The position numbers and the translations under genes were made by a program. Shown in pieces: positions 32,624 through 52,304 of a stretch of DNA of 64,000 bases. The DNA lies in the NCBI GenBank assembly GCA_018266295.1, contig JAFEAQ010000010.1, positions 1 through 64,000 of the forward strand, written 5' to 3'. Positions within the stretch are counted from its first letter, which is position 1, and each line of letters starts with the position of its first letter. Below the pieces are notes generated by a model. The model was not told where the DNA came from. It made no database searches and saw nothing but the letters and a program-made list of their open reading frames with translations. This DNA comes from Bdellovibrionales bacterium (GTDB lineage: Bacteria > Bdellovibrionota > Bdellovibrionia > Bdellovibrionales > Bdellovibrionaceae).

Positions 32624-32687
32624 TGGATCTGAGCGGGTCTTTTGCTTGCATGCCTTTCTCATGGCTTTATTTTCAAAGGAAAGACCC

Positions 32688-33809
32688 ATGAGAAAGTCTT
32701 TAAATCTTGCCCTCTCAGCGGCCCTTATTTTGGGCGCAGTTTCACTCGCTCTTCCACAGTCCGCGGTGGCAACGTCGGTTGCACAAACAAGTGGCGTCAG
32801 TGCCCTTCAGCTAAACCCACAGGACGTCGTCCCCGAAGTGGTTGCTCTGGGAATCACTCCCGTCATCTACAAAGTGACGACACCACAATTACAAAAGCTT
32901 TCTTACAACGAAGATAAATATGCCCTGCAAATCAATATTGGCCACGTGACAGCGGAGCAGTTTGCAAAGCTCAAATCTCTTTATGGAAACTTCAGCCAAG
33001 TTCCTTACGACAGCAACAAAGCCTATGACCTCGTCGATTTCCTTCCACCGGCGATTCAAGCAACGGTGAATAAAACCTTTACGCCGAAAAATTATGATAC
33101 ATCGGCATTGGTGAGCATGGACTTCACAGACGATGAAATGACCGGCGAACTTTGGGGTCTGCAAAAAGGCGGTGTGAGTTTTATCACCAACTGCTGGGGC
33201 ACCACCATCGAAGTGCTTAAATCTCTGCACTCTCGTCCGGCAAATGAAGCCAATACCTATATTCTTTCATGGCCTGGCCGCTGGGATACGGGCGAACTTT
33301 TTATGGATACCAAATACAATTCAACCGCGCGTGAAAATGCCCTTCGCTTCGGTGATGCGCTGACTGTTTGGTCGAAAGAGACAGGAGCTCTTTCAATTCA
33401 GCACACGGCTTTGATTTTAGGAAAAAACCTGGTTTTTGAAAAAACAGATACCTCAGAAGATGATCCTTACCGTTTATCCTTGCGAGCCGATGTTCTTGCA
33501 AAATTCGCAAAACTCTTCGAAGGGAAAGAAATCATCCGCTATCGCCGCTTCGGCCCTGAAAAACAACCCATTCCTATGAGCAATCCGGGAAGCGGTTTCT
33601 TCTCACCGGAATTGACGGCGAAAATTTTAAAGGCCATCCCAGGCCTGCCGCTTGATTCGATGGAAGCCGGTTGCGAGGATCGCCTCGGTGGAGGTTGCGA
33701 CCTCACTTATTCGGAAATGCGCATTCTCAAAATCGAAATCGATGCAAAGACCGGCCGCGGGCGCTTGTCGGGCGATGAGCGTGGCTTAAAGCAGTTTAAA
33801 CCCCTCTAA
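32688..33809 (+). CDS. Exported protein, putative NlpC/P60-like
   Basis: 373 aa from ATG 32688, which has AAAGGA seven bases upstream; an in-frame ATG at 32646 would bury the signal peptide. Signal peptide ends near QSAVA. The mature protein has a candidate cysteine in NCWGTT (C169), a His in IQHTALILG (H239) and Glu in VFEKT (E251), the order and spacing of an NlpC/P60 or related papain-like amidase. This is motif-based and could be wrong. Two late Cys (GCEDRLGGGC) may form a disulfide. Possibly acts on peptidoglycan; monocistronic. Confidence 0.8.
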   Translation: MRKSLNLALSAALILGAVSLALPQSAVATSVAQTSGVSALQLNPQDVVPEVVALGITPVIYKVTTPQLQKLSYNEDKYALQINIGHVTAEQFAKLKSLYGNFSQVPYDSNKAYDLVDFLPPAIQATVNKTFTPKNYDTSALVSMDFTDDEMTGELWGLQKGGVSFITNCWGTTIEVLKSLHSRPANEANTYILSWPGRWDTGELFMDTKYNSTARENALRFGDALTVWSKETGALSIQHTALILGKNLVFEKTDTSEDDPYRLSLRADVLAKFAKLFEGKEIIRYRRFGPEKQPIPMSNPGSGFFSPELTAKILKAIPGLPLDSMEAGCEDRLGGGCDLTYSEMRILKIEIDAKTGRGRLSGDERGLKQFKPL

Positions 33810-35109: not shown

Positions 35110-36786
35110 CTAGGCAATATAAACGCGGCACTCAAACGGGCGAAGCTCGAACTTTGCCGGAAGCCCGAGGCTGGGATTTTCGTAGTTGCTAATAAGCATT
35201 TTTGCATTGGCCACTTCGGCCGGCATTTCAACATGGGTCTTTTGGCCCTTGACGTTGCAAATGATCCACGCCGTTTGACCGTTAAGATGTCTGGTATAAG
35301 CAAACACTTCAGTATGACTCTGCAGAATCATTTCAAAGTCGCCGTAGATGAAGATCTTATTATCACGGCGAAGACGGATGAGTTGCTTATAGAAGTTCAG
35401 AACTGATTTTGGATCTTTTTCTTCCGTTTCAACGTTAATCGTTTTGTAGTTCGGATTGACCTTGAGCCACGGTTTTCCCGTCGTAAAGCCGGCATTTTCT
35501 TCACCATTCCACTGCATCGGAGTGCGCGCATTATCGCGCGAAGTCCCGGCGAGTTCTTTGGTGATGGCAATATCACTCATCCCTTCCGCACGACGAACGA
35601 CAAATAAGTTCTTCGCAGCCACGTCCTGGAAATCCTCAGGGCCGCTAAACTCGGTGTTTGTCATACCAAGCTCTTGGCCTTGATAGATAAATGGACTTCC
35701 TTGCATCAAGAAATACATTGCCGCAATTGAAGTCGCACTTTCACGGTGGAAGATAAATGGATCTCCCCATTTAGAGACCACACGAGTGATATCGTGGTTT
35801 TCAACAAAGAGCGCGTTCCAGCCGATACCATGCAAATTGGTCTGCCAGTTTGTGAAAATGGTCTTAAGCTCGGCCAGGTCAAACTTATCAGCACCGAGAT
35901 GGTCCCACAATTTGGTGTGCTCAAATTGAATGAGCATGCTAAAGCGTTTCTTTTCTTCTGCCACCCAATCCTGAGCCTGGAAGGAATTCACGCCGTTTGC
36001 CTCGCCGACGGTCACAATGTCATACTTGCTGAAAGTTTCGCGGCAGAGTTCGCCGATATAATCCATGACGCCGTCCACGTTCATGTGGTTTGCATAAGAT
36101 GGAACGTATTTAAGACCTTGAGGATTTGGTAAATCCGGCAGGCCCGGGCGTTTCTTAATATGGCTGATGGCATCGATACGGAAACCATCGATGCCTTTAT
36201 CCAGCCACCAATTCACCATGTCGTAAGCTGCCTGGCGCATGTCTTTGTTTTCCCAGTTAAGGTCCGGTTGACGAGCCGAGAAAACATGCATGAAATACTG
36301 ATTGGTCTCTGGATCCAGCTTCCACGCCGAGCCACTGAAGATACTTTCCCAGTTATTGGGCTCAGCACCGTTTTTACCATCACGCCAGATATACCAATCA
36401 CGTTTGGAATTATCCTTTGAAGAGCGGGATTCAATAAACCATGGATGCTCATCGCTGGTGTGATTCAGAACAAGATCCAAAATCAGCTTCATTCCACGAT
36501 CATGCACACCTTTCAAAAGATCATTAAAGTCCTGCATACTGCCGAACTCATGATGAATATCCTGATAGTCGCTGACATCGTAACCATTATCATCTTGCGG
36601 CGACTTAAAGATTGGGCAAATCCAGATAATATTGACACCAAGATCTTTAAGGTAATCTAATTTTTCGATGATGCCGCGAAGATCTCCGATGCCGTCGCCG
36701 TTGCTGTCTTTAAAACTGCGTGGATAGACTTGATATATAACGGATTCTTTCCACCACTTTTGCGTTACCGGAGATTTTGCAGTCAT
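35110..36786 (-). CDS. Alpha-glucosidase, GH13 (oligo-1,6-glucosidase-like)
   Basis: Cytoplasmic enzyme (no signal peptide) of 558 aa that should cut imported maltodextrins to glucose. GH13 catalytic triad: nucleophile D205 in GFRIDAIS, acid/base E262 in VGEANGV, D332 in VENHDITR. The QPDLNW motif around 173-178 is typical of GH13 subfamily 31-like alpha-1,4/1,6-glucosidases. It lies 12 bases after the LamB-like gene on the same strand and completes the maltodextrin locus. Confidence 0.93.
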   Translation of the reverse strand: MTAKSPVTQKWWKESVIYQVYPRSFKDSNGDGIGDLRGIIEKLDYLKDLGVNIIWICPIFKSPQDDNGYDVSDYQDIHHEFGSMQDFNDLLKGVHDRGMKLILDLVLNHTSDEHPWFIESRSSKDNSKRDWYIWRDGKNGAEPNNWESIFSGSAWKLDPETNQYFMHVFSARQPDLNWENKDMRQAAYDMVNWWLDKGIDGFRIDAISHIKKRPGLPDLPNPQGLKYVPSYANHMNVDGVMDYIGELCRETFSKYDIVTVGEANGVNSFQAQDWVAEEKKRFSMLIQFEHTKLWDHLGADKFDLAELKTIFTNWQTNLHGIGWNALFVENHDITRVVSKWGDPFIFHRESATSIAAMYFLMQGSPFIYQGQELGMTNTEFSGPEDFQDVAAKNLFVVRRAEGMSDIAITKELAGTSRDNARTPMQWNGEENAGFTTGKPWLKVNPNYKTINVETEEKDPKSVLNFYKQLIRLRRDNKIFIYGDFEMILQSHTEVFAYTRHLNGQTAWIICNVKGQKTHVEMPAEVANAKMLISNYENPSLGLPAKFELRPFECRVYIA

Positions 36787-36798
36787 TTCTTTTTCCTT

Positions 36799-38070
36799 TT
36801 AGAACCAAGCTTCGAATTGATAACCGAAAGATGTGCCTTCTTGCTTATCTTTAAACGAAGACGCATTCACTGCAATCTTATCCATATTATTTTTATTCCA
36901 CATCGAATGCGTGATGTAAGCTCGAAGGACCGGGCGGCCCCAGATGGATTTGCTCAATGAAATCTGAGGCGCCAAGGTGATACGAGAAAGATCGCGCTCT
37001 CCGACTTTGTCACCCCCGGTGGTCTTCTCAGTCTGATTTTCAATACGTGAGTAGCCGAACTCGAGCATCCATTGCACTCGGTCCCTCATATAATAAATAG
37101 GACGGAGACCGATCTCATAAAAGAAACGGCGACTATCAACGTCCGCTCCGCTGTCGCCATACTCACCGGCAAGGCCGAACATGAAGGCCCAACGATCCGT
37201 GACTTCTTTATTCCAGTTTTCAACCAAACGCACAGCCCAGCCGTTATTTTTGTATTCATCCGCAACAAGAAGGGCGCTATCGCCATAGATGTTAAAGCTT
37301 TGCATTGCGCCTTTTCCGTACATCAGCGCGAGATTATTGTAACCGCTGCCAACGAGACTCTCTAAACGAGTCGCGACGGAGTAACCATTTGTCTTCACAT
37401 ACTCATTCGTACCATCCGTTCCAGACGGAGCCCAGGCGTAAACTCCCCAGAAATTAAGATAGACATCTTCAACCACCGGTAACTTTGCCCAGCGAAAATC
37501 CAACGCTTGCAAAACCGGCTGACCTTTATCTGTGGTCACCGTTTCATTGGCCTGAATCAAATGTGCAAAAGAAAAAATACCAGAATTTGTTCTGATGTTT
37601 TCAATACCGGCTCCCACACCGCTCATATCGCCGTAGTAATACCAATCGAAAATATGAAGATCGACATCACGATAAAAACGTTTTCCCACCCAAAGTTCGC
37701 CGGGAATTTCAGCAAGTCCACCTGCAGAAACAAAGGCTTCAATTTGATTGATATCGCGATTCGACGCGGTTTCCCACTGACGTGCACCATTGGCATTGGC
37801 CTCTAGACGCACCTGCGTTCTGAAAAATGCAGGATCTGTCTCTGATGGTTTCTTGTGGTTAAAGACCATCACGATTTCTGAATAGAAACTGCACTCATTC
37901 CCCAAGCGTAGGAAATTACCAGGAATTCCCTGATTATTAAAACACTCCTGTTTGCCACCGAGTAAATTAAGACCGGTTCCTCCACGGAGATAGCCTAAAA
38001 AATCAGCATCCATTGCATGCGCATTCAGCGAAACCAGCGTAACAAACAAACAGAGTAAACGTATTTTCAT
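36799..38070 (-). CDS. Maltoporin-like outer-membrane protein (LamB family)
   Basis: 423 aa with a signal peptide (1-19, ending NAHA). The mature start DADFLGYLRGGTG, the disulfide-type segment LGNECSFYSEIV, WVGKRFYRDVDLHIFDWYYYGDMSG and the C-terminal Phe (EAWF) match LamB, a trimeric 18-strand porin for maltodextrins. Aromatic residues of a greasy slide cannot be assigned reliably. It diverges from pullulanase across 79 bases and is followed by alpha-glucosidase. Confidence 0.92.
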   Translation of the reverse strand: MKIRLLCLFVTLVSLNAHAMDADFLGYLRGGTGLNLLGGKQECFNNQGIPGNFLRLGNECSFYSEIVMVFNHKKPSETDPAFFRTQVRLEANANGARQWETASNRDINQIEAFVSAGGLAEIPGELWVGKRFYRDVDLHIFDWYYYGDMSGVGAGIENIRTNSGIFSFAHLIQANETVTTDKGQPVLQALDFRWAKLPVVEDVYLNFWGVYAWAPSGTDGTNEYVKTNGYSVATRLESLVGSGYNNLALMYGKGAMQSFNIYGDSALLVADEYKNNGWAVRLVENWNKEVTDRWAFMFGLAGEYGDSGADVDSRRFFYEIGLRPIYYMRDRVQWMLEFGYSRIENQTEKTTGGDKVGERDLSRITLAPQISLSKSIWGRPVLRAYITHSMWNKNNMDKIAVNASSFKDKQEGTSFGYQFEAWF

Positions 38071-38149: not shown

Positions 38150-40819
38150 TTGAGAGTGAATATTCTATTTCCATTTTTATTCATTGTGTTCGCGTGCTTA
38201 CTTGCGCCGAACTCCCATGCCTTCTCAGCGCGCGCACAGTGGCTTGATGCAAATCATCTGCGCTTAAAGCTACCGACCGGTTTCATCACAAATATTTCTC
38301 AACTGCAATTTTCCCTCGCCGACACCTCACAAACAGTGCGTGGAAATGGAGTGGCTACTCTACCGCTGGTCGCGAACGACAACGGTTATGTCACACTCGA
38401 CACCTCAGCCATATCGCGCGCGGACCTTGAGTATTTACTCACTCGCCCGCTGAAGGTTTTCATCACGGATCGCAATCAAAACGTGCTTGATAGCACTGCG
38501 ATTCAGTATGCCGGCGTGCTGGATCAGAACTTCTATTATGATGACTCCGACCTTGGCGGCCATTGCGATACAGCTCGTTGCACACTGAAGCTCTGGGCAC
38601 CGACCGCGCAAAATGTGCGCGTGCTCCTTTTTAAAGACAGCACCACTCCTCTTCAACAAGCTGAAATTTTTAATAGTCAGCGCGAACAACAAGGTGTTTG
38701 GGCTCTTTCACTTCCAGCAAATAGAAAAAACTATTTTTATTTGTACGAAGTTGAACTCTATCAACCCTTCATCGACAGCATGCAAACTTCTTTGGTGACG
38801 GATCCCTACAGCCAAAGCTTATCGTTAAACGCCACACGCTCGCAGCTCATCGATATAAATTCCCCCGAGAGCAAACCCTCTGGCTGGGAATCTCTCGCAA
38901 AACCTCCGTTCGGGGCTCTGCAATCGGCAGTGATCTACGAGCTCCACGTCCGTGACTTTAGCGCGAAGGACCCCAGCGTCGATCCTCAGTACCGTGGCAC
39001 CTATCTCGCCTTCACGCAAGACTCCAACGGCACTCGACATTTGAAGGACCTCGCTCAGGCGGGACTCACTCATCTGCATTTAATGCCGTTTAATGACTTT
39101 GGCACCGTCAACGAAATAAAAAGTAAATGGGATGAGATTAAACTCGGTCCTACGTTTGATCTTCCGACTCCACAGGAGCTCACTGCCGCGATCCGCGACA
39201 CTGATTCATACAACTGGGGCTATGATCCGGTTCACTACTCGGCTCCGGATGGCAGCTACGCCGTGGATGGCGATGGCGTGAATCGCGTTAAAGAAGCGCG
39301 TTCCATGATTCAGGCGATTAACCGCATGGGTCTTCGCACAGTTCAGGATGTGGTTTACAACCACACCTACGCACACGAGTTGGAAAATCAGTCGGTCTTT
39401 GATCGTATTGTGCCCATGTATTACTACCGCGTTGACGAGAACGGTGTGGCTTATACGACCTCTTGCTGTGCTGATACGGCGAGCGAACATCGCATGATGG
39501 AAAAACTCATGATCGATAGTGTTCTGTCTTGGGCGAAGAACTATAAAATCGATGGCTTCCGCTTTGACTTGATGTCGTTTCATTCACGCGCGACTATTTT
39601 AAAAATTCGTGATCAGTTGCGAACTCTGACTCTTAACAAAGACGGCGTTGATGGCTCAAAGATCATTATCTATGGCGAAGGCTGGACGTTTGGTTCTTTC
39701 TACAATGCTCATCCTGACGAGGCCATGACTCACGAAAATTCTTTCGGCACCGGCGTGGGATTTTTTAACGACCGCCTTCGCGATGCCGCTCGCGGTGGAA
39801 CAACAAGTTCCGGCGAAAAATCCGACCAGGGTTTTGCAACCGGACTTTTCTTTGATTTCAATCAAGAGCCCGCTAATCGCAACACACCGATTGACTTAGC
39901 ATCTCAGCGTGGAAAACTCTTACACCTGGGAGACGTCATTAAAGTCGGTCTTGCCGGAAATCTGCGCGACTTGAGTTTCCGCGATCACCTTGGAAATACG
40001 ATCACAGGTTATAGCCTCAAATTCCGGAATGACCCCGTGGCTCACGCCTCCGTTGCCCAAGAGACTATTAACTATGTTTCAGCCCACGATGGCTATGGTC
40101 TTTGGGACGCAATTCAAGCCAAAGCACCGTTTAACACCTCTGGCAGAACGCCGGCTTCGGCAACGCCTGAGGACCGGCAGCGCATGCAGCAGTTGCTACT
40201 TGCTCTTCCTCTCCTAGGGCAAGGGATTCCGTTTATTGAAGCAGGATCTGATCTTCTTCGTTCAAAAAACGGTGATCAAGACAGCTATAACTCCGGCGAC
40301 TTCTTTAACCATCTTGATTGGACGGGGCAGGGAAATGACTGGGGCTTGGCACTTCCTCCGGCATGGAAGAACTCTGCCGACTGGCCTTTCTGGGAGCCGC
40401 GCCTCAGATCGCCGGATATTCGCGCCAATAGAAAACTCATTCAGCAAACTGAGAATTACTTCTTAGCCCTGCTTCGCCTACGCCACAGTTCAAAGTTATT
40501 TAATTTAAATACGCCGGCGGAAATTTCTGCGAAGCTGCGCTTTATTGATAACGACCGCGCACCAGAGCCTGGCCTGATCGCGATGCTCTTGCAAGGTGCT
40601 GATGAAAGCCTTTTAGTTTTCTTCAATGCTTCCCGTGATGGCCGTATTTTTAATCACGATATTTTAAAGCGAAACTGGAATCTCCACCCGCTCCTCAATG
40701 AAAAAATCGACCCAGTTCTTAGCGATGTTTCACTTAATTCCGCTTTAGGAAGCATTCGTCTTCCGGGGCGCTCCACCGTGGTTCTGCAAATGACAGGACC
40801 TGGAAGCAATAGAAAATGA
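38150..40819 (+). CDS. Exported pullulanase, GH13
   Basis: 889 aa with a signal peptide (ends near NSHAFSA). Order: N-terminal region to about 135, CBM48 domain around 140-220 (CTLKLWAPTAQNVRVLLF), then the GH13 barrel starting at VIYELHVRDFS. Catalytic D473 in DGFRFDLMS, E510 in YGEGWTF and D647 in SAHDGYGLWD; Asp/Glu triad complete. It should cleave alpha-1,6 branches of glycogen, pullulan or amylopectin. TTG start at 38150 is chosen for spacing to AGAGGG; GTG at 38156 is possible. No lipobox, so secreted or periplasmic. Confidence 0.92.
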   Translation: MRVNILFPFLFIVFACLLAPNSHAFSARAQWLDANHLRLKLPTGFITNISQLQFSLADTSQTVRGNGVATLPLVANDNGYVTLDTSAISRADLEYLLTRPLKVFITDRNQNVLDSTAIQYAGVLDQNFYYDDSDLGGHCDTARCTLKLWAPTAQNVRVLLFKDSTTPLQQAEIFNSQREQQGVWALSLPANRKNYFYLYEVELYQPFIDSMQTSLVTDPYSQSLSLNATRSQLIDINSPESKPSGWESLAKPPFGALQSAVIYELHVRDFSAKDPSVDPQYRGTYLAFTQDSNGTRHLKDLAQAGLTHLHLMPFNDFGTVNEIKSKWDEIKLGPTFDLPTPQELTAAIRDTDSYNWGYDPVHYSAPDGSYAVDGDGVNRVKEARSMIQAINRMGLRTVQDVVYNHTYAHELENQSVFDRIVPMYYYRVDENGVAYTTSCCADTASEHRMMEKLMIDSVLSWAKNYKIDGFRFDLMSFHSRATILKIRDQLRTLTLNKDGVDGSKIIIYGEGWTFGSFYNAHPDEAMTHENSFGTGVGFFNDRLRDAARGGTTSSGEKSDQGFATGLFFDFNQEPANRNTPIDLASQRGKLLHLGDVIKVGLAGNLRDLSFRDHLGNTITGYSLKFRNDPVAHASVAQETINYVSAHDGYGLWDAIQAKAPFNTSGRTPASATPEDRQRMQQLLLALPLLGQGIPFIEAGSDLLRSKNGDQDSYNSGDFFNHLDWTGQGNDWGLALPPAWKNSADWPFWEPRLRSPDIRANRKLIQQTENYFLALLRLRHSSKLFNLNTPAEISAKLRFIDNDRAPEPGLIAMLLQGADESLLVFFNASRDGRIFNHDILKRNWNLHPLLNEKIDPVLSDVSLNSALGSIRLPGRSTVVLQMTGPGSNRK

Positions 40820-43026
40820 CATTAGTGAGGATGATCATATTAGCTCTGGGACTCTTCACAGGGTCGCTGAGTGCGGCACTTCCAACGCGCATTCAACTCT
40901 GGCATCAGATGATTTATTCGCATCGCCAGGTTCTCAGCGAAGCTTTACGCCAATTCGAAAAAGAGAATCCGGACATCTTGATCCGTGAAACATATCGTGA
41001 AACCGAAGAGCTCCGCTCCAGCTATCAAGCCGCCGCCATGGGTAATAGCGGGCCTGAGCTTGTTTTTGGCCCAAGTGATCAGATCGGCCCTTTTGCGGCG
41101 ATGGGGATCATTCAACCCCTCGACGGAGTTTTAGAAAAAGAATATCTTGCTCAGTACGATCCGCTTGCGATTCCGCTTTTCCAAAACCATAATTACATGC
41201 TTGGCGGCACGATCGGAAATCACCTGATGCTTCTTTACAATAAGAAGCTCATGCAAACACCGCCTCAGAACACTGATGAGCTGATCGCCATGGGCCAGAA
41301 GCTAACAGTTGATAAAGACGGCGACGGCAAGATCGACCAGTTCGGTTTGGTCTTTAATTATACAGAGCCATTCTTCTTTGCGCCGTTTATCCCCGCTTTT
41401 GGCGAAGGTTTTATGACCGAGGATTTTAAGCCGCGCTTGAATCAACCGGGGCTCGCGAAAACCTTCCAGTTCATTCTTGATCTCAGGGATAAATACAAAA
41501 TCATTCCTAAAGAGTGCGACTATGAAACCGCCAACGCTCTTTTTAAGCAAAACAAGGCGGCAATGCTGATTAACGGTGACTGGTCTTGGGGTGATTACAA
41601 AAGTGCCGGCGTTGACTTTGCAATCGCGCGCATCCCGATGGTCAGCGAAACAAAGAAATGGCCTCACCCTCTTGTCGGAACGGTCGGCTATTCATTGAAC
41701 GCACACTTTCAAGATGACGCTCATAAAGAAGCTGCAATCCGGGTTTTAAAGTATCTAACCTCAGCGCGTGTGCAGTTGCTATTTACTGAGAAAGTCGGCG
41801 TGATGCCGTCTTTGATTGCTCTGAAGGATCACCCCGTGGTGAAAAGCAATCCCCTTCTCCAGGCTTCTGTTGGCATTATGGAAGTGGGTTCCCCGATGCC
41901 AGTTGTGCCTGAAGTGCGCGGCGTTTGGGATAGTATGCGCATTCAGTACCAAAAAGTTCTTGCCGGCGCCGAGACTCCAGCTCAGGGTGCTGAAGCCGCC
42001 CAAAGCATGGCCGAGTCGCAGATCCAGAGCATGAACGAGGTGGTTCCTCCGGACGCCGGCGCCTGGGTCATCAAAGGCCTTGTCGCCTTTTTGATTTTAA
42101 CCCTGCTTGTACTTTCGCGCAGATCAGTAAAGAGTTTCATTCAAGGCTTTAGCGGTCCGCAAAGATTTGTATATTTCATGATGCTTCCGGCATTTGTCGG
42201 AATTTTTGCGGTGATCGTCTATCCGTTTTTCTATAATATCGCAATTTCGTTTTCAAACTTTAGTCTTCGCACTTTCCAAGACTGGTCCATCATTGGCTTT
42301 CACAACTACTGGGGTGCGATCACAGATCCGAAGCTCTATTCGCTTTTACTTAAAACCATCATCTGGACCGTAGTGAATGTGTTTTTCCATGTGAGCATCG
42401 GCGTATTCCTGGCTGTTATCATCAATCAAGTGATGCCGGCAAAAGCCATCTGGCGCACGATCTTGATCATCCCGTGGGCGATCCCGCAATATATTACAGC
42501 GCTGACTTGGCGTGGGATGTTTAACCAAGAGTACGGACCGATTAATATTTTTCTGCAAAAGTTCTTGCACCTTTCTCCGATCCAGTGGCTCAGCCAACCG
42601 TTCACGGCTTTTACCGCGTGTATTATTACAAACGTGTGGCTTGGCTTCCCGTTTATGATGATTGTCGCTCTTGGTGGCTTGCAATCCATTCCGCAGTCTT
42701 TGTATGAGGCCGCCTATCTTGATAAAGCCAATGCTTGGCAAAGATTCCGCCATATTACCTTGCCTCTCTTAGCTCCTGTGATGATTCCAGCAGCTCTCTT
42801 GGGTTCAATCTGGACCTTTAACAATTTAAATGTGGTCTGGCTTGTCAGCAATGGGGGCGAACCAGGAGATCAGACTCATATCCTTGTCAGTTATGTTTAC
42901 AAAGCGGCCTTCAATCTCTACCGCTACGGTTACGCGGCGGCGGTGTCGGTTTTGATTTTCATTTTGCTCGTGCTTTGGAGTTTGGGATCTTTGCGTAGCC
43001 AATACAACAAGGAGAAGAAAGTATGA
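40816..43026 (+). CDS. Fused maltodextrin-binding protein and MalF-type permease
   Basis: 736 aa chimera. Residues 1-21 form a signal peptide; about 22-405 are a family 1 extracellular solute-binding domain (IQLWHQMIYSHRQVLSEALRQFE start, DGDGKIDQFGL, MLINGDWSW and ending PEVRGVWDSM). A transmembrane helix (412-430) followed by SRR leads to a MalF-like membrane domain with about six helices and the EAA loop (EAAYLDKANAWQRFRHITLPLL-type, about 630-650) that contacts MalK. Binding protein and permease are therefore one polypeptide. Overlaps pullulanase and malG by four bases each. No frameshift or stop is visible at the junction. Confidence 0.93.
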   Translation: MTLVRMIILALGLFTGSLSAALPTRIQLWHQMIYSHRQVLSEALRQFEKENPDILIRETYRETEELRSSYQAAAMGNSGPELVFGPSDQIGPFAAMGIIQPLDGVLEKEYLAQYDPLAIPLFQNHNYMLGGTIGNHLMLLYNKKLMQTPPQNTDELIAMGQKLTVDKDGDGKIDQFGLVFNYTEPFFFAPFIPAFGEGFMTEDFKPRLNQPGLAKTFQFILDLRDKYKIIPKECDYETANALFKQNKAAMLINGDWSWGDYKSAGVDFAIARIPMVSETKKWPHPLVGTVGYSLNAHFQDDAHKEAAIRVLKYLTSARVQLLFTEKVGVMPSLIALKDHPVVKSNPLLQASVGIMEVGSPMPVVPEVRGVWDSMRIQYQKVLAGAETPAQGAEAAQSMAESQIQSMNEVVPPDAGAWVIKGLVAFLILTLLVLSRRSVKSFIQGFSGPQRFVYFMMLPAFVGIFAVIVYPFFYNIAISFSNFSLRTFQDWSIIGFHNYWGAITDPKLYSLLLKTIIWTVVNVFFHVSIGVFLAVIINQVMPAKAIWRTILIIPWAIPQYITALTWRGMFNQEYGPINIFLQKFLHLSPIQWLSQPFTAFTACIITNVWLGFPFMMIVALGGLQSIPQSLYEAAYLDKANAWQRFRHITLPLLAPVMIPAALLGSIWTFNNLNVVWLVSNGGEPGDQTHILVSYVYKAAFNLYRYGYAAAVSVLIFILLVLWSLGSLRSQYNKEKKV

Positions 43027-43841
43027 TGAAAAAAGTCTTCGCCTGGTTCAGCATTCTTCTTTTTGCTCTATTTTCAATTTACCCCATGCTCTACGTGCTT
43101 GCCATCTCACTTCGCGGTGACAATGCTTTTCAAACAGAATCCCTAGAGATCATCACCGAGCATTCGACACTTAAAAACTTTATCTTGCTCTTTACCGAGA
43201 CCGATTTTCTTCTCTGGATGAGAAACTCGCTGCTGATTTCAGCGGTGACGACGCTGATGGGTGTGGCCTTTGCCTCGACCAGTGCTTATGCGCTGTCTCG
43301 CTATAATTTCCGTGGCCGAAACTTAATGCTGTTTTCCCTGCTGGCAAGCCAGATGTTTCCAGCGACCATGCTGATTTTGCCATTTTATATTATCCTTGCG
43401 AAGATTCATCTGATTGACAGTTTCTGGGGGCTCTTTCTGATTTACTCTTCGACAGCCCTGCCATTCTGCGTTTGGCAGATGAAGGCCTATTACGACACCA
43501 TTCCGAAAGAGCTCGAAGAGGCGGCCTTACTTGATGGCTGTTCGCGCTGGATGACGTTCTATAAAATTATTCTCCCGATCTCTTCACCGGCGCTGGTGAT
43601 TACCGCCCTCTTTAGCTTTATGACAAGCTGGAGCGAATATGTGATTGCGGCGGTCGTGCTTCAAGATCCAGAACTTTATACCTTGCCGTTGGGGCTTAAA
43701 TCCTTCCAGGCAAGTCTTGCGACCCAATGGGGTCTTTATGCCGCCGGCGCTTTGATTGTGAGCGTTCCGGTTTTAATTTTATTTATCAGCATCTCCCGAT
43801 ATTTGGTTTCAGGGCTCACCATGGGAAGCGTAAAGGGTTAG
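43023..43841 (+). CDS. malG: MalG-type sugar ABC permease
   Basis: 272 aa inner-membrane permease with six hydrophobic segments and the EAA loop EEAALLDGCSRWMTFYKIILPI-type (about 160-180) for the ATPase. It pairs with the membrane domain of the fused MalF protein. Start overlaps the upstream stop by four bases; AAGGAG lies just before. Typical MalG length is about 280-296. Confidence 0.95.
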   Translation: MMKKVFAWFSILLFALFSIYPMLYVLAISLRGDNAFQTESLEIITEHSTLKNFILLFTETDFLLWMRNSLLISAVTTLMGVAFASTSAYALSRYNFRGRNLMLFSLLASQMFPATMLILPFYIILAKIHLIDSFWGLFLIYSSTALPFCVWQMKAYYDTIPKELEEAALLDGCSRWMTFYKIILPISSPALVITALFSFMTSWSEYVIAAVVLQDPELYTLPLGLKSFQASLATQWGLYAAGALIVSVPVLILFISISRYLVSGLTMGSVKG

Positions 43842-43842
43842 T

Positions 43843-44886
43843 ATGGCACATATTGAATTTGCAAAAATCGCAAAAAGCTTCGGCAGTAATGAGATTCTTA
43901 AGGGAATTGACCTTGAAATCACCTCCGGGGAGTTCCTGGTGCTCGTCGGTCCTTCGGGCTGCGGAAAATCCACTTTACTCAGAACGCTTGCGGGGCTTGA
44001 AAATCCAGACTCCGGCGAAATCCGGGTCGATGGCAAGTCTATCAATAAGCAAGAACCTCAGAACCGTGATCTTTCGATGGTTTTTCAGAGCTATGCACTT
44101 TATCCGCACATGAATGTCGCTGAGAACATGGGATTTTCCATGCGCCTTCAGAAAAAACCAAAAGCTGAAATCGAAAAACGTGTGACTGAGATCGCTCAGC
44201 TTTTGCAAATTGACCACTTACTGGATCGTAAGCCTAAGGAACTCTCTGGCGGTCAGCGCCAACGCGTAGCTTTGGGACGCGCACTGACTCGTCAGACTTC
44301 GATTGTACTTTTTGACGAGCCTTTATCGAATCTGGATGCTCATCTTCGCAGCCAAATGCGTGTTGAGATCAAACGCATTCACCAGAAAATTAAAAGCACA
44401 ATGATCTATGTGACACACGATCAGATGGAAGCCACCACCATGGGCGACCGCATTGCGGTGTTGAAGGATGGCCGTGTCGAGCAAATCGGCACGCCGACTG
44501 AGATCTATCACCAGCCAAAGAATCTTTTTGTGGCAAGATTTATCGGCTCACCAGAAATGAATTTCATGGAAGGTGACGTTGTTCGTCGCCTCCCATGGCC
44601 CGAGGCGCAAAAACCAGAGCAGATTTTAGGTGTTCGCCCCGAGGCCTTTAAGATCTCTACGGGCCCCCTCGAAAGCGGCGAATTGGAGCTAGGAAGCTTC
44701 CAAATCGAGCTTTCAGAAAACCTTGGTGGTCAAACGATGCTTCATGGTTCTCTAGAGGGGCAGAACGTGAAAATTTTAGTCGACTCTTCTATGAGTTTTA
44801 AACCCAATGAGAAACTTAAATTAAAGATCGACCTGACAAAGGCCCACGTCTTTGATAAGAAAACAGGACTGAATCAAAGACTTTAA
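43843..44886 (+). CDS. malK: Sugar ABC transporter ATPase, MalK/UgpC type
   Basis: 347 aa. Walker A GPSGCGKS at 36-43, Q loop in MVFQSYALYPH, signature LSGGQRQ at 134-140, Walker B VLFDEP, and a C-terminal TOBE/OB domain from about 240. Length is intermediate between MsmX-like and E. coli MalK (371); the regulatory domain is shortened. It energises the fused MalE-MalF/MalG transporter and lies one base after malG. Confidence 0.95.
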   Translation: MAHIEFAKIAKSFGSNEILKGIDLEITSGEFLVLVGPSGCGKSTLLRTLAGLENPDSGEIRVDGKSINKQEPQNRDLSMVFQSYALYPHMNVAENMGFSMRLQKKPKAEIEKRVTEIAQLLQIDHLLDRKPKELSGGQRQRVALGRALTRQTSIVLFDEPLSNLDAHLRSQMRVEIKRIHQKIKSTMIYVTHDQMEATTMGDRIAVLKDGRVEQIGTPTEIYHQPKNLFVARFIGSPEMNFMEGDVVRRLPWPEAQKPEQILGVRPEAFKISTGPLESGELELGSFQIELSENLGGQTMLHGSLEGQNVKILVDSSMSFKPNEKLKLKIDLTKAHVFDKKTGLNQRL

Positions 44887-44911: not shown

Positions 44912-46342
44912 ATGAAGTTCTTATTTTGCTGTTTTACGATCCTCCTGACTTCACTTCAGGTTTCAGCGGCGCCTCGTACTGTCTTTTTGCAAATGTTTGA
45001 ATGGCCTTGGAACGACATCGCTCAAGAATGCGAAACCTACTTAGGGCCCGCCGGTTTTTCTGCGGTTCAGGTCTCCCCGCCACACGAAAATATTATTTGG
45101 CAAAACAACCCTTGGTGGGAGCGCTACCAGGTTGCAAGTTATAAAATTGAATCCCGCAGTGGTAACGAAAAAGAGTTTGCCAGCATGGTTCGCCGTTGTA
45201 AGGCCGCTGGCGTTGATATCTACGTCGATGCGGTGATCAATCACATGACTGGCATTCCTAGTGGCACGGGCATCGCGGGGTCTAAGTTTGATCACTACAA
45301 CTATCCTGGCCTTTTCAGCTATCAGGACTTTCATCATTGCGGCAGAAATGGCAACGACGACATCGTTAATTTTGATGACCGCTATGAATTGCAATTCTGC
45401 GAACTCGTGGATCTTGCGGATCTTGCGACGGAGTCCGATTACGTGCGCGGAAAAATTGCCGAGTACTTAAATCACTTGCTAGATCTTGGCGTTGCCGGGT
45501 TCCGTATTGATGCCGCAAAACATATTCCAGCTTCTGATCTTCAGGCGATCTTCTCGCGCTTAAAGAAGAATCCTTACATTTACTCGGAGATCATCTACAG
45601 CCCGACGGGTCCTATTCAGTTTAATGAATACACGCCGTTTGGCGATGTCATGGCGTATGCCTACGGCGAGACCATCGCCAACGGCATTCGTTCCCGGAAT
45701 ATGGACACTCTTCGCCATGCCGCTGATGGCTTTCCTGCAAGTGACAAGTCGGTTGTGTTCTTAACCAATCACGATCTTGAACGTGGCAATAGCGTTTTAA
45801 GTTATAACGGCTCTGAAAGAAACCTCTACAAGCTTGCTCAGGTCTTTTTGTTGTCTTGGCCTTATGGCTATCCTCACCTCTATACCGGTTACACCTTTAA
45901 CGATCGCGAGGCCGGGCCGCCTTTGGATCAGAATCTGCACACGAAGTCTGTATTTAACAGTCAGGGCGAATGTCGCGCTCCTTGGACGTGCGAGCACCGT
46001 GAGCGCGAAGTGGCGGCGATGGTTCACTTCCGTAACCAAACGGATCGTTCGTTCATCGTTTACAACTGGTGGAGTAACGGCCGCGATGTTCTCGCGTTTA
46101 GCCGTGGCAACCAGGGCTTTGTCGCCATTAACTTTGGCAATCAAAACTACACTGCAGATTTCAGTTCGGCTCTTCCTGATGGAACCTATTGCAACGTCTT
46201 GGTTGAAAACTACAATATCCGCTCACGCTCTTGCACTGAGGGTTATCAAGTCACCAACGGGCGCGTGCGGATCAGCTTACCTCCACAAACTGCCGTCGTA
46301 TTGCTTGAAAAAACCGACGTGCGTATAGGTAAAAATAAATGA
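44912..46342 (+). CDS. Exported alpha-amylase, GH13 (animal/actinobacterial-like)
   Basis: 476 aa with signal peptide (1-19). Starts TVFLQMFEWPWNDIAQEC and has the triad D200 (GFRIDAAKH), E226 (YSEIIYS), D288 (TNHDLERG); YVDAVINHMTG is the first conserved region. The layout and the Arg-Asp/Asn residues near the triad resemble chloride-dependent animal and Streptomyces alpha-amylases (GH13_24/32). A small C-terminal beta domain has paired Cys (YCNVLVEN...RSCTEGY). GAGGGGAGG lies before the ATG. Makes maltodextrins from starch or glycogen outside the cytoplasm. Confidence 0.92.
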   Translation: MKFLFCCFTILLTSLQVSAAPRTVFLQMFEWPWNDIAQECETYLGPAGFSAVQVSPPHENIIWQNNPWWERYQVASYKIESRSGNEKEFASMVRRCKAAGVDIYVDAVINHMTGIPSGTGIAGSKFDHYNYPGLFSYQDFHHCGRNGNDDIVNFDDRYELQFCELVDLADLATESDYVRGKIAEYLNHLLDLGVAGFRIDAAKHIPASDLQAIFSRLKKNPYIYSEIIYSPTGPIQFNEYTPFGDVMAYAYGETIANGIRSRNMDTLRHAADGFPASDKSVVFLTNHDLERGNSVLSYNGSERNLYKLAQVFLLSWPYGYPHLYTGYTFNDREAGPPLDQNLHTKSVFNSQGECRAPWTCEHREREVAAMVHFRNQTDRSFIVYNWWSNGRDVLAFSRGNQGFVAINFGNQNYTADFSSALPDGTYCNVLVENYNIRSRSCTEGYQVTNGRVRISLPPQTAVVLLEKTDVRIGKNK

Positions 46343-47298
46343 AGAAGATGACATATACGATCGGCCTGGATCTCGGCGGTACGAAGCTTGCTGCTGCTTT
46401 ATTAAACCAAAAAGGCGAAATGCTGGATTTTATCAAAGTGCCGGTTGATATGAAGCGCGAAGGTTCTGCGGCGAAGACGCAAAAACGCGTGATCGAACTC
46501 ATGGCAGATATCTGCGTTGATTTTAAAAACCGCTTCCCGCGGGAAACATCCGGAGCTTCTTTTCGAGGCGTCGGCCTTGCAAGTGCGGGCCCTCTGAACA
46601 CCGAAGAAGGAAAGCTCGTTCATCCGGTGAACTATCCAGGTTGGAAAGTCGTTCCTATTCGTGATCTTTTAAAAAAAGAACTCCAAGCACGCAAATTTAA
46701 GACTTCCGTTTTCTTCCAGCATGATGCCACAGCGGCCGCTCTTGCTGAAGGCTGGGTTGGCGGCGCCAAAGGCATGTCGTCGTTTGCGGTCGTCACCATC
46801 GGTACCGGTGTCGGCACGGGCCTTATCTTTAACGGTCGCCCAGGGCAAAGTCGCGGCATGGGTTCGGAGTACGGTCATATTGTTATTGATATTCAGAAAC
46901 TGATGGCCCACCCGAACCAGATTCACCACTGCACAGTTGAAGGAATTGCTTCGGGCACGGCTCTTCTTCGCCGCGCTAAAGACATGGGTTTTCAAGGAAA
47001 GTCCGTCGAAGAACTTGTGATGGCAAAAGATGAGAAGTACCAAGTTCTTTACAAGGACATGGCTTGGGCTCTTGCGAGTCTGTGCTACAATCTTTCAATT
47101 GGTTACAACCTCGAGAATATTTTCTTAAGCGGTGGGTTGATTAAAATCCGCGATCTATACCTTAAAGACTTAAAAGCTCATTACAAAAATCTGATCCGTC
47201 AGGTGAATCCGGCTTTTGAATGCAAGATTGAAGTTGCTAAGACTAAAAACCATGCCGGCGTCCTCGGTGCGGGCTATTTACCATATTTAGGCGCTTAA
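46339..47298 (+). CDS. ROK-family sugar kinase, probable glucokinase
   Basis: 319 aa. Phosphate loop DLGGTK (11-16), catalytic Asp D129 in QHDATAAALAEG (the family usually has NDA), second phosphate loop TIGTGVGTGL and E177/H180 in SEYGH. The usual zinc motif CxCGxxGC after SEYGH is absent; HPNQIHHCTVEG takes its place. Overlaps the amylase by four bases and would phosphorylate glucose released by the alpha-glucosidase. Glucose as substrate is inferred from context. Confidence 0.9.
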   Translation: MKKMTYTIGLDLGGTKLAAALLNQKGEMLDFIKVPVDMKREGSAAKTQKRVIELMADICVDFKNRFPRETSGASFRGVGLASAGPLNTEEGKLVHPVNYPGWKVVPIRDLLKKELQARKFKTSVFFQHDATAAALAEGWVGGAKGMSSFAVVTIGTGVGTGLIFNGRPGQSRGMGSEYGHIVIDIQKLMAHPNQIHHCTVEGIASGTALLRRAKDMGFQGKSVEELVMAKDEKYQVLYKDMAWALASLCYNLSIGYNLENIFLSGGLIKIRDLYLKDLKAHYKNLIRQVNPAFECKIEVAKTKNHAGVLGAGYLPYLGA

Positions 47299-48308
47299 CG
47301 GCGCTTCCAGATGCTAGAATAGGCTTCGCGGAAGCTCACCTTGCTTTCAATGTCTTCACTGGACGAGCGATCCAGAAACTCTTTGGTGATCGCGATCGGC
47401 TTTGTCACGAAGCCGCTTTCTTTTTTACCGGCAAAAGCACGATTTAACTCATCCGCCAGCTGCCAGCCTTGCGCAAGTAGCGGCTCAGCCACTGTGACGG
47501 CCTGCTGTGAGCCTCCGCCCTTAATACGGCCTATAGCGACGCGTGAGCCATCTCCGGCCGCGATATTCGTAATGTCATTGCGGCCAATTTCTTTCAGCGG
47601 AAAATTCATATTATCAAAATAAATATCATTGACAGCCACCGTGTGAGTCCAGGCCTTGCCGAATTGACGATTCAGCCTTACCACGAGCTCAGGAATGCGA
47701 AGTTGCGCGCTATTAATCGAGATGTTCTCAACGGAAAGCACGTGGCAGGTCTTACATTTTTTAAGCGTTTCTGTGATTTGCCGAACCTTTTCGTTGGCAA
47801 TGACGAACTGATTGTCTGAGATGATGACGATGCCTGGTGGTTTGCTACCGACAGTCTGAACAGATTCCGCCGCGAGCTTTGCCACTTCTGAGAGATCCGT
47901 TGTGATATTCGCAAAAAGATACTTTGTATGCCCTGGATGCGTGCCTGCGTGCCAGCCAACCAGGAAAGGATGCTTTGAAGGAATCATATCCTCCATCTCC
48001 GCGTCAGGCTGAAAGCCACCAAGGACAATGCCGTCGACTCTTGCACGGAGGGATGTCTTTAGGATTTTGTGGAGCTCATTGATGTCCCCGCCACCGTCTT
48101 TGACTTCGACTTCCCAGCAAAGTTCGCGAATGGCTTCCATGAAGCCACTTTTTACGCCGAGGACTCCGCCGTTTCTAAGATCGCTTGCAATAAAAATGAT
48201 TTTCTTGCCGGTTTGGGCTTTCGGACCTGAATGCGGGCCGTCCCACGAATAGGCTTGAAGAGCGAAAAGACAGCCAAGAATCACCATTAGAAACTTTGAC
48301 CTGCCCAT
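47295..48308 (-). CDS. Exported sugar-binding protein (Peripla_BP_4 type)
   Basis: From ATG 48308 (AGGAAGG about nine bases upstream) the protein has 337 aa with a signal peptide ending near QAYSW. An upstream ATG at 48359 would lengthen the N-terminus beyond the signal. The mature part has the type I periplasmic-binding fold (IIFIASDLRNGG, VDGIVLGG, NDIYFDN), like RbsB-type proteins. A CKTC pair sits mid-chain. No permease or ATPase follows, so it is an orphan; it could sense sugar for a receptor or serve a transporter elsewhere. Convergent with the kinase, four-base overlap. Confidence 0.85.
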   Translation of the reverse strand: MGRSKFLMVILGCLFALQAYSWDGPHSGPKAQTGKKIIFIASDLRNGGVLGVKSGFMEAIRELCWEVEVKDGGGDINELHKILKTSLRARVDGIVLGGFQPDAEMEDMIPSKHPFLVGWHAGTHPGHTKYLFANITTDLSEVAKLAAESVQTVGSKPPGIVIISDNQFVIANEKVRQITETLKKCKTCHVLSVENISINSAQLRIPELVVRLNRQFGKAWTHTVAVNDIYFDNMNFPLKEIGRNDITNIAAGDGSRVAIGRIKGGGSQQAVTVAEPLLAQGWQLADELNRAFAGKKESGFVTKPIAITKEFLDRSSSEDIESKVSFREAYSSIWKRR

Positions 48309-48405
48309 GAATATCCGCCTTCCTCGAAATAGGCTAAGCAGATTATTTGAAAATATCAAATTTCTTTACGGAAAGAAGATGTTTGGTCCAGTGAACAAAC
48401 AAAGT

Positions 48406-48967: not shown

Positions 48968-50527
48968 CTACTTAATGCACTTGGCGTTTAACGTGGAAGC
49001 ATTCAATGTACACTTCCCACCATTAGTAAGATCGAACTTCCAGCCATGCTTGGGGCAGACCCAATAGCGATCATCTTCACTCCAGCCGGCGGAAAGATCT
49101 GCGTTTTGGTGAGGGCAATAATGGGCTATTTCATATGTTTTCCCACCGACATCGACCTTCAGCCTAGCCATATTCTTTTGCATACTTTCCCATTTCGCAC
49201 AGAAAGCTGGAAGATCCTGACTATCCACAAAAACGAAAGCATTTAATAATGTTTTATATTCATCGGGCTGACGATCAATTTGGACTCTAAATGTGAGTGA
49301 GAAGTCCTCCCAGTTCATTTTACGATCCAACAATCGACGTATCTGTCGGGGCTGAGCAAGCACACGATAATATGGCGGGTTTAATAAATAGGTCTCTACA
49401 AGATCCACACTGCCCTTTTGAAAATCGACTCTTACTATTTTTTCAGAGAAATCAATGAGACCAAAATAAAAAGGTAAATTCAGATCGGCACGCATCGGAA
49501 AAAGATCTAGCTTTGCCTGCAATTCTTTCTGTAAATCAATGAGAGTCCTAAGCAAATCTACTTTTTCATTTTCTACCTTCATTGCAGCAAAGTCATTCAC
49601 ATAGTCATTGGAATACTTCGCAAGGTATTCACGGACACTACTCTCTTGAGCACGATCTACACTGCGATCTTCAAGTATCGCACCAGAGGAAATATTCAAA
49701 ACATCGCCCGGCTGCAGCCCTATCCAACGTGGACAATTCTCACGAAGCTCCGAGGTAAGGTAGTCCTTAAAAACTTCACTTCTTGGAAAAATATTTTCCT
49801 CTTCAAAATTGAGATGAAAAAGATCCGGGTCCAAAAAACAAGCTGGCCCAGCAGAAGGGATATAAATCTTTGGATTTAATATCTGAATCGCACGCATCAG
49901 CGTCTTAAATTTACTATGCTTTTTATTTCGCGAGATCTCTCGATAACGCTCTACTGTATATTGATAGCATGTGGGGTGCCAAGTAGCCCCTGAAAACTGT
50001 GCCGTGAATACGTCGATTGAACCATACTCACGCAGTATTTCCGGAAGTTTATCGTATATTTTGCAGTCGTTTAAATTGAGAAAAGTTTCTTTACCAGATG
50101 ACACAAGGATAGCGGAATCCCGATCGAGCTCGGCATCTTCAACATAGATGCGAATACTTCCATTCTGAAGGGAGTAAGTCCCCCCATCTGTAACTTCCGT
50201 GATTTTTTCAAAACCTAGGTTACCGAGATCATCTCGAAGGCTTTTTCTCCGAAACTTTGGTATTAGAACTTCAATATTCTCTTTTTTTAGCCTTCTGAGA
50301 AATTCAGGATCATAGTGATCTTTATGCTCGTGACTAATATAGAGATAGATAGGTTTCTTCGCATTGAAGACTTTATCTTGCAACCAAGAAGCCATGTGAT
50401 GATTTCGAGGGTACTGAAACCAGGCCATATCATAAGCGCCTGAGCTTGAGACCCAGGGATCCATTATGACTAACCAATCCGCTGACTCTGCTAAAAAACC
50501 CGAGTGTCCAAGCGATCTAATTTCCAT
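48968..50527 (-). CDS. Metallo-beta-lactamase fold + Rieske protein (CMAH-like)
   Basis: 519 aa, no signal peptide. N-terminal MBL domain begins with LGHSGFLAES and has HxHxDH at H66-E-H68-K-D70-H71; AGPACFLDPDL and DGGTYSL follow. The C-terminus (about 455-510) is a Rieske [2Fe-2S] site: C471-P-H473, then C491-P-K-H494 (CxH-x17-CxxH). The same two domains build CMP-N-acetylneuraminate hydroxylase, but there Rieske comes first. A sugar-nucleotide hydroxylase is suggested, not shown. First gene cluster neighbours are GT-C-like and acyltransferase genes, 70 bases upstream on the same strand. Confidence 0.88.
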   Translation of the reverse strand: MEIRSLGHSGFLAESADWLVIMDPWVSSSGAYDMAWFQYPRNHHMASWLQDKVFNAKKPIYLYISHEHKDHYDPEFLRRLKKENIEVLIPKFRRKSLRDDLGNLGFEKITEVTDGGTYSLQNGSIRIYVEDAELDRDSAILVSSGKETFLNLNDCKIYDKLPEILREYGSIDVFTAQFSGATWHPTCYQYTVERYREISRNKKHSKFKTLMRAIQILNPKIYIPSAGPACFLDPDLFHLNFEEENIFPRSEVFKDYLTSELRENCPRWIGLQPGDVLNISSGAILEDRSVDRAQESSVREYLAKYSNDYVNDFAAMKVENEKVDLLRTLIDLQKELQAKLDLFPMRADLNLPFYFGLIDFSEKIVRVDFQKGSVDLVETYLLNPPYYRVLAQPRQIRRLLDRKMNWEDFSLTFRVQIDRQPDEYKTLLNAFVFVDSQDLPAFCAKWESMQKNMARLKVDVGGKTYEIAHYCPHQNADLSAGWSEDDRYWVCPKHGWKFDLTNGGKCTLNASTLNAKCIK

Positions 50528-50597: not shown

Positions 50598-52304
50598 CTA
50601 AGGAAGCATCAGAACGACGTAGGCATTGTTTTCGGCGATGACCTTAATCCAAGGCTGCTTTACCAGCTCTTTGAGCCAAGAGGTTAACTTACCGCACGCC
50701 GGATTGCCTAAAAGAATAAGCTTGTTAACGATGATAACTTCATAGCGATGCATTTTCATATAGTTATAAAGCATCTCTGAGTTTGTCATGAGTGGTGTCG
50801 CCTCAAAAGCCGTAGACTCACCTTCGCACCCCAAACGACCCAAAAATGGCTCTTTAGAGAATTTTTCCTGAACTTCTTTGTTATAATTCGTGTACGCCAA
50901 ATATCCCGAAGTGATTTTCTTATTATGAAAAATCTGCTGAAAATTTTGAGATGGATCTTGAGCCCATGCTGTCGGAACTTGAACTACGATGGTTTCGTTT
51001 GGCATATTTCGAACTTGCTCAAGAGCAGCCATCGGAAAAACCTCGAGGTACTTGAGAGTTGGAAAAAACCACATCTGATTCAATAATGGTCCCGTAAAAA
51101 TTGCCCAAGCTACCAATATCCAAGAAAAACATTTTTTCCACTTTCCTTCTTTAGATTGCTCTAAGAACAGAAAGACCGAAAAAATAAGACACATGTTAGT
51201 GACTAACAAAAGGCGCCCTGGTGTTCTGGTAATTCTGAACGGAAATGAATGCAAAAGTTCTGAATTAAAATCAAGATACGCTAGAACTTCATTATTAAAA
51301 CGAAGTTCAGGCCCCAATGAGATGATAAAGTAAAATATCGAAACACCCAACAGACAGACACGAAAAGAGTCTTTCCAGAACTGTCGTTTGCACAAAGAAA
51401 AAATAAAAATAATTAAGATTAATGGATCAAAATAGTTCTGTCTTTCGAGCGATAGCTTTGGAAGATCACTCCACCACTGGTACAATAAACTTGTATCAAA
51501 AGGAATTAATGGACTTAACAAATCTAAATTGTATGCCCTTCTGTCAGAATCAACCAAGACAGGGCCATTTTTCAAAGAATAGGCAATCATCGGCCACCAG
51601 AAGACTAAGAAAATTCCAAGCGAAACCGCAACGCCGGCTGTAAGATACAGAAGTATTTTCCTATTGAGTTTGCTTCTTTGCTCCCACAATTTATAAATAA
51701 CAAGAATAAGTGCAAAGATGCTTAACATTGGAATATTATGAAAAGTTCCTACAAAACTTAGACCTAGAAGGACGCCACCGACTAAGATAGTTCTAAAACG
51801 GCTTATGTCTAAATTTAGAGCTGCATACAGAATGAATTGAATGCCCCAGATCGAAGAAAGCAATGTCATATGTTGATGGGTTCTCGCAACATAAAACCCA
51901 CACCACCAGACAAACAGAATGTATGCAAGCTGCCTCACCGGCGACTTTATGAAGACCGTTGCAACAAGCCATGCCCCCAGCAGGATGAGCCATATTTGAA
52001 ACAACGTGAATAAATGAAACTGAAGAATCGTTCCTGCTTTGCCAAAGGCGCAAGTCAGCGCAAAAGGAAACGGGCTATCATATGTTCCTGACATGTCAGC
52101 ACCGAAAGGCGCTAAAAACTGATCTGAATGAAAGTTTCCGGTAAGAACATGGCCACAATACCACTGAGCTATTGTCGCGTGAGAAGTGGGATCACCGTAT
52201 CCACCCGCTACATTTTCCTTCCAGTTCCAGAGAGGAAATGTATGAATAAAACCCGCAAGCAAAACTACAAATAGAACGACAACACTCTTATTGGGGGTTT
52301 TCAT
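50598..52304 (-). CDS. Polytopic membrane protein, GT-C glycosyltransferase-like
   Basis: 568 aa with about 11-13 membrane helices, short loops and a 130-residue C-terminal soluble part. The first extracytoplasmic loop has GGYGDPTSHATIAQWYCG, with Asp/His as in lipid-linked-sugar GT-C enzymes and YfhO-like proteins. I assign the fold class by topology only; donor and acceptor unknown. Ten bases after the acyltransferase and therefore co-transcribed. Confidence 0.8.
   Translation of the reverse strand: MKTPNKSVVVLFVVLLAGFIHTFPLWNWKENVAGGYGDPTSHATIAQWYCGHVLTGNFHSDQFLAPFGADMSGTYDSPFPFALTCAFGKAGTILQFHLFTLFQIWLILLGAWLVATVFIKSPVRQLAYILFVWWCGFYVARTHQHMTLLSSIWGIQFILYAALNLDISRFRTILVGGVLLGLSFVGTFHNIPMLSIFALILVIYKLWEQRSKLNRKILLYLTAGVAVSLGIFLVFWWPMIAYSLKNGPVLVDSDRRAYNLDLLSPLIPFDTSLLYQWWSDLPKLSLERQNYFDPLILIIFIFSLCKRQFWKDSFRVCLLGVSIFYFIISLGPELRFNNEVLAYLDFNSELLHSFPFRITRTPGRLLLVTNMCLIFSVFLFLEQSKEGKWKKCFSWILVAWAIFTGPLLNQMWFFPTLKYLEVFPMAALEQVRNMPNETIVVQVPTAWAQDPSQNFQQIFHNKKITSGYLAYTNYNKEVQEKFSKEPFLGRLGCEGESTAFEATPLMTNSEMLYNYMKMHRYEVIIVNKLILLGNPACGKLTSWLKELVKQPWIKVIAENNAYVVLMLP

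Follow-up and report, generated by a model that had tools for sequence, protein, structure and literature searches.

Our analysis indicates that malEF (40816–43026, forward strand) very probably encodes a subunit of the kind of maltodextrin ABC importer known from Bdellovibrio, where MalE, the binding protein, and MalF, the permease, form a single covalent chain. The gene lies in a 64,000-nucleotide stretch of a Bdellovibrionales genome (hereafter, the window) and forms one continuous frame with an ATG start, 736 codons and a TGA stop. The 736-residue product consists of a fused maltodextrin-binding domain and MalF-like permease, and the gene shares four bases with each of its neighbours, the pullulanase gene upstream and malG downstream.

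A previous sequence-only reading of this DNA had described a single 736-residue frame with a binding domain followed by a permease. This was borne out by the frame itself, by its orthologues and by the Pfam search which that reading had proposed: SBP_bac_8 (residues 43–349, 101.7 bits), SBP_bac_1 (residues 42–320, 81.6 bits) and then BPD_transp_1 (residues 527–722, 63.2 bits) all scored above their cut-offs. The signal peptide (residues about 1–23; 40816–40884) was likewise supported by hydropathy (hydrophobic stretch at residues 3–21), by a helix at residues 2–18 in the AlphaFold2 model and by the start of the match to PDB entry 6FFL at residue 24. Pfam and the 6FFL match place the MalE-type solute-binding domain at residues about 24–408 (40885–42039). 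It is followed by an extra membrane helix at residues 415–433 (42058–42114), seen in hydropathy, the orthologue alignment and the model, and by the MalF-like permease core at residues about 450–736 (42163–43023), defined by Pfam BPD_transp_1, NCBIfam, hydropathy and the model; all of these parts are on the forward strand. The AlphaFold2 model, built on 28 fused orthologues (mean pLDDT 81.7, pTM 0.76), contains a helix at 388–407, a break at 408–414, helices at 415–433 and 435–446, and a membrane bundle from 450; the low-confidence stretches in its permease part are 563–574 and 678–702.

The malEF frame is not a sequencing error, because stop-free full-length orthologues occur in both Bdellovibrionota and Neomarinimicrobiota. 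The search for the domain pair across Bdellovibrionota, also proposed earlier, revealed full-length fusions in 29 of the 369 genomes, with 50–100% identity, one open frame and no internal stop, as well as fragments in two further genomes. In Neomarinimicrobiota (Fidelibacterota in NCBI; the phylum of locus L005), the full-length fused form was found in 28/199 genomes, while it was in pieces in one genome and split in two; the counts for both phyla are manual row counts of match listings. Split relatives with adjacent genes for the binding protein and the permease were found in Chlorobiota, Calditrichota, Eisenbacteria, KSB1, Gemmatimonadota and others, and those from the first four groups are the closest unfused relatives of MalEF (38–45% identity for the binding protein and 54–63% for the permease). 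A Caldisericaceae MAG (L033:3433-5616) has the binding-protein gene in two frames, probably due to an assembly frameshift. The fact that in several other phyla the orthologues are two adjacent genes, which meet at exactly the point of fusion, might suggest that separate malE and malF genes were joined here by a stop or frameshift near 42040 that was missed during sequencing or assembly. Such an artefact has hardly any likelihood and was rejected: the continuous stop-free frame recurs in dozens of independent assemblies, and the linker is near-constant in length and hydrophobic in 28/28 aligned orthologues.

A PDB sequence search matched residues 24–408 of MalEF to 6FFL (E 7e-183), and in the fold search this entry gave a TM-score of 0.98, normalised by the length of 6FFL. 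The entry is titled “Maltose/maltodextrin-binding domain MalE from Bdellovibrio bacteriovorus bound to maltotriose.” The identity between the two domains was 69% over 385 residues, in an alignment that spans MalEF residues 25–408, with the 6FFL sequence taken from the PDB search alignment. The best NCBIfam model for the binding half was also MalE (residues 38–397), with a score under the equivalog cut-off. For a closer comparison we chose 17 positions which, from general knowledge of E. coli MBP, we take to represent its ligand region. MalEF was identical to 6FFL at all 17, including W256, W371, E184, D88 and F186. The MBP residues D65, E153, W230, W340 and R344 are kept in both proteins, and both have F in place of Y155, G in place of W62, Q in place of R66 and N in place of E111; MBP D14 and K15 are likewise not conserved in MalEF, a state common to 6FFL. 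The absence of W62, R66, E111, D14 and K15, together with the diversity of CUT1 transporters, could be taken to mean that MalEF carries another oligosaccharide (e.g., trehalose or a prey glycan) and not maltodextrins. This is improbable, since 6FFL, which was solved with maltotriose, is the same at those positions and the operon is devoted to alpha-glucans. Based on 6FFL and the published fusion transporter, maltodextrin is the predicted substrate in this strain.

The second half of the protein was correctly described as a MalF-like membrane domain with an EAA loop (near residues 630–654, YEAAYLDKANAWQRFRHITLPLLAP), but its likeness to MalF is confined to the C-terminal core. The best NCBIfam model, MalF (PRK10999), matched residues 492–720 through the C-terminal part of the profile only (264–506 of 520), with 184 bits against a cut-off of 392. 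The P2 domain (PF14785) was found neither in MalEF nor elsewhere in the genome in a search in which E. coli gave a match.

The junction is best understood by comparison with the split relatives. Their binding protein ends at the equivalent of residue 408 (within a few residues), their permease starts with a short N-terminus of its own, ahead of the first helix at about 450, and hydropathy revealed no equivalent of helix 415–433 in either protein. The anchoring helix of MalEF had previously been noted at residues 412–430; its existence was confirmed, although the AlphaFold2 model shifts it to 415–433. This helix is present, with a near-constant length, in 28/28 aligned fused orthologues, and its sequence is poorly conserved: the mean modal residue frequency was 0.37 for residues 409–446, compared with 0.67 in the binding domain and 0.75 in the permease. 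The basic residues SRRSVK follow it, and it is a probable out-to-in anchor. With the binding domain outside and the permease starting inside, one membrane crossing would be needed; the extra helix is consistent with a topological adapter, which is the simplest reading of this predicted topology, leaving the binding domain outside while the first permease helix would still start inside. The short non-helical break of variable sequence could also be a site of proteolysis (near residues 409–414) that frees MalE to act as an ordinary soluble binding protein. We regard this as very improbable, given that the anchor helix and its length are kept in all 28 aligned fused orthologues and that, on the MalE side, there would be no obvious use for an anchor helix once the protein had been cut. 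The preferred reading is a MalE domain that stays tethered to its permease.

The genomic surroundings fit maltodextrin import. On the forward strand, malEF is preceded by pulA (38150–40819; TIGR02103, 803.9 bits), which overlaps the malEF start and codes for a debranching enzyme of the pullulanase type that apparently carries a signal peptide. It is followed by malG (43023–43841), which encodes the 272-residue partner permease (Pfam; PRK10998, 167 bits) and shares an ATGA overlap with the malEF stop, by malK (43843–44886) for the 347-residue ATPase (Pfam), by a GH13 alpha-amylase gene (44912–46342; Pfam), also with an apparent signal peptide, and by a gene for a ROK-family sugar kinase, probably glucokinase (46339–47298; Pfam). 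Divergent from this alpha-glucan operon is lamB (36799–38070, reverse strand), encoding a LamB-type maltoporin (Pfam LamB, 287 bits), and a GH13 alpha-glucosidase-like enzyme is encoded at 35110–36786 on the same strand (Pfam); it lacks an obvious signal peptide and is probably cytoplasmic. The order pulA-malEF-malG-malK-amylase-ROK is retained in many Bdellovibrionota loci (e.g., L002, L003, L009, L019, and L025). In its own genome malEF is a single-copy gene, as the protein query returned only itself, and neither this query nor an SBP_bac_1/8 profile search revealed a free MalE there. The other SBP_bac_1/8 matches of the genome are unfused frames of 347–382 residues with no detected similarity to the MalEF binding domain, and one of them adjoins a PotA-like ATPase.

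The operon ends next to an oppositely oriented gene (47295–48359, reverse strand) for a 354-residue, probably exported protein. Searches of Pfam, NCBIfam and PDB sequences gave no match to this protein; judged by eye, it looks like a periplasmic sugar-binding protein from a different family. Other genes of the window encode a metallo-beta-lactamase-like domain joined to a C-terminal Rieske domain (48968–50527, reverse strand), an FG-GAP repeat protein with a UnbV_ASPIC domain (26305–27951, reverse strand) and two large frames without a Pfam match (50598–52304, reverse strand, 568 residues; 32646–33809, forward strand, 387 residues).

With SBP_bac_1/8, two BPD_transp_1 permeases with EAA loops and a MalK-type ATPase in one operon, the system belongs to the CUT1 type I ABC importers. 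We propose that the secreted pullulanase and amylase would produce maltodextrins, which would enter through LamB and be bound by the tethered MalE domain beside its own permease. Import through a MalEF/MalG heterodimer would be powered by a MalK dimer, and the GH13 glucosidase and the ROK kinase would use the imported maltodextrins inside the cell. The system shares with E. coli MalEFGK2 the CUT1 type I importer class, the EAA loop, the heterodimeric permease, the MalK-type ATPase and LamB; it differs in that MalE is free in E. coli, that the MalEF permease lacks the N-terminal part and the P2 domain of E. coli MalF, and that MalK is shorter at the C-terminus. A shortened regulatory domain of MalK had been pointed out before, and indeed the alignment with E. 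coli MalK spans only residues 1–246, as does the match to the E. coli-type model PRK11000 (384 bits against a cut-off of 568); the model passed is the UgpC-type PRK11650 (435.6 against 432 bits). However, MalK is 331–353 residues long throughout the fused operons of Bdellovibrionota, while in other loci it is mostly 355–379 residues (some cut by contig ends), and the shorter MalK is a modest lineage-wide trait and not a remarkable one.

The sequence-only reading had also claimed that fusion fixes one receptor per transporter and departs from the usual free MalE. The former agrees with the sequence, the orthologues and the title of Licht et al. (2019; PMID 30193862), which describes a fused MalE-MalF architecture (cited in PMC7756565, PMC9045158, and PMC7060353). 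The departure from a free MalE is real, but in view of this title and 6FFL it is not a new exception: the Bdellovibrio version of the MalE-MalF fusion has already been published and crystallised, and the fusion is ordinary for the lineage. The passages found in a paper on Bdellovibrionota metabolism (PMC8067016) contain nothing on it. As in the known type, a 6FFL-homologous binding domain precedes a MalF-like permease in the same chain of MalEF and the ligand-contact residues of the maltotriose-bound domain are kept. Presumably, 6FFL is part of the published work on the fusion and B. bacteriovorus is the organism of that work; the citing papers state neither. MalEF and the B. bacteriovorus transporter come from different species of one family. 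They are alike in bacterial lineage and ligand-region residues and, by the title, in architecture, where no difference was found. One binding domain per complex is expected, because MalG carries none, with the stoichiometry taken from the published transporter. The suggested parallel with GlnPQ and OpuA holds for the covalent joining of binding domains to the permease, but not as a close analogy: these are other transporter families, and passages of PMC11065425 and PMC8025302 describe at least two binding domains in each transporter for OpuA and GlnPQ of L. lactis.

In the permease-core tree of 67 sequences, 31 fused rows formed one group among the split relatives (SH-aLRT 86, not strong); the tree came from a quick search and has long branches, so that any number of origins read from it is approximate. 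A single clade of all 39 fused rows was ruled out by the AU test (p-AU 6.5e-14). Outside the main clade are L075–L079 (Bdellovibrionota family f15), L080 and L103, with 22–27% identity to MalEF. Those scanned (L075, L079, L080, and L103) all have the binding-protein and permease domains with one hydrophobic helix between them, and the whole set probably represents independent fusions. The fused L047:4896-7127 is 48% identical to MalEF in the permease and only 25% in the binding domain, and the AU test does not reject its placement in the main fused clade (p-AU 0.518); it is possibly a binding-domain swap or a separate fusion. Given the rejection of a single fused clade and the outlying fusions, it is therefore likely that the MalE-MalF-type fusion has had at least two independent origins in bacteria, each with one helix added between the domains. 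Alternatively, several fissions may have followed a single ancient fusion, which is compatible with the change counts alone.

In conclusion, MalEF shows that a natural fusion already known also exists in a further species, and what interest remains comes from repeated fusion and the added helix. A transporter family that has both fused and split members, divided at a single residue, offers a comparison set for the capture of a receptor by a permease, in which one can ask how a tethered receptor affects affinity and capacity and how often fusion arose. If repeated fusion is true, the single-receptor sugar importer would be a recurrent design in Bdellovibrionota, Neomarinimicrobiota and Calditrichota, going beyond a curiosity of Bdellovibrio.
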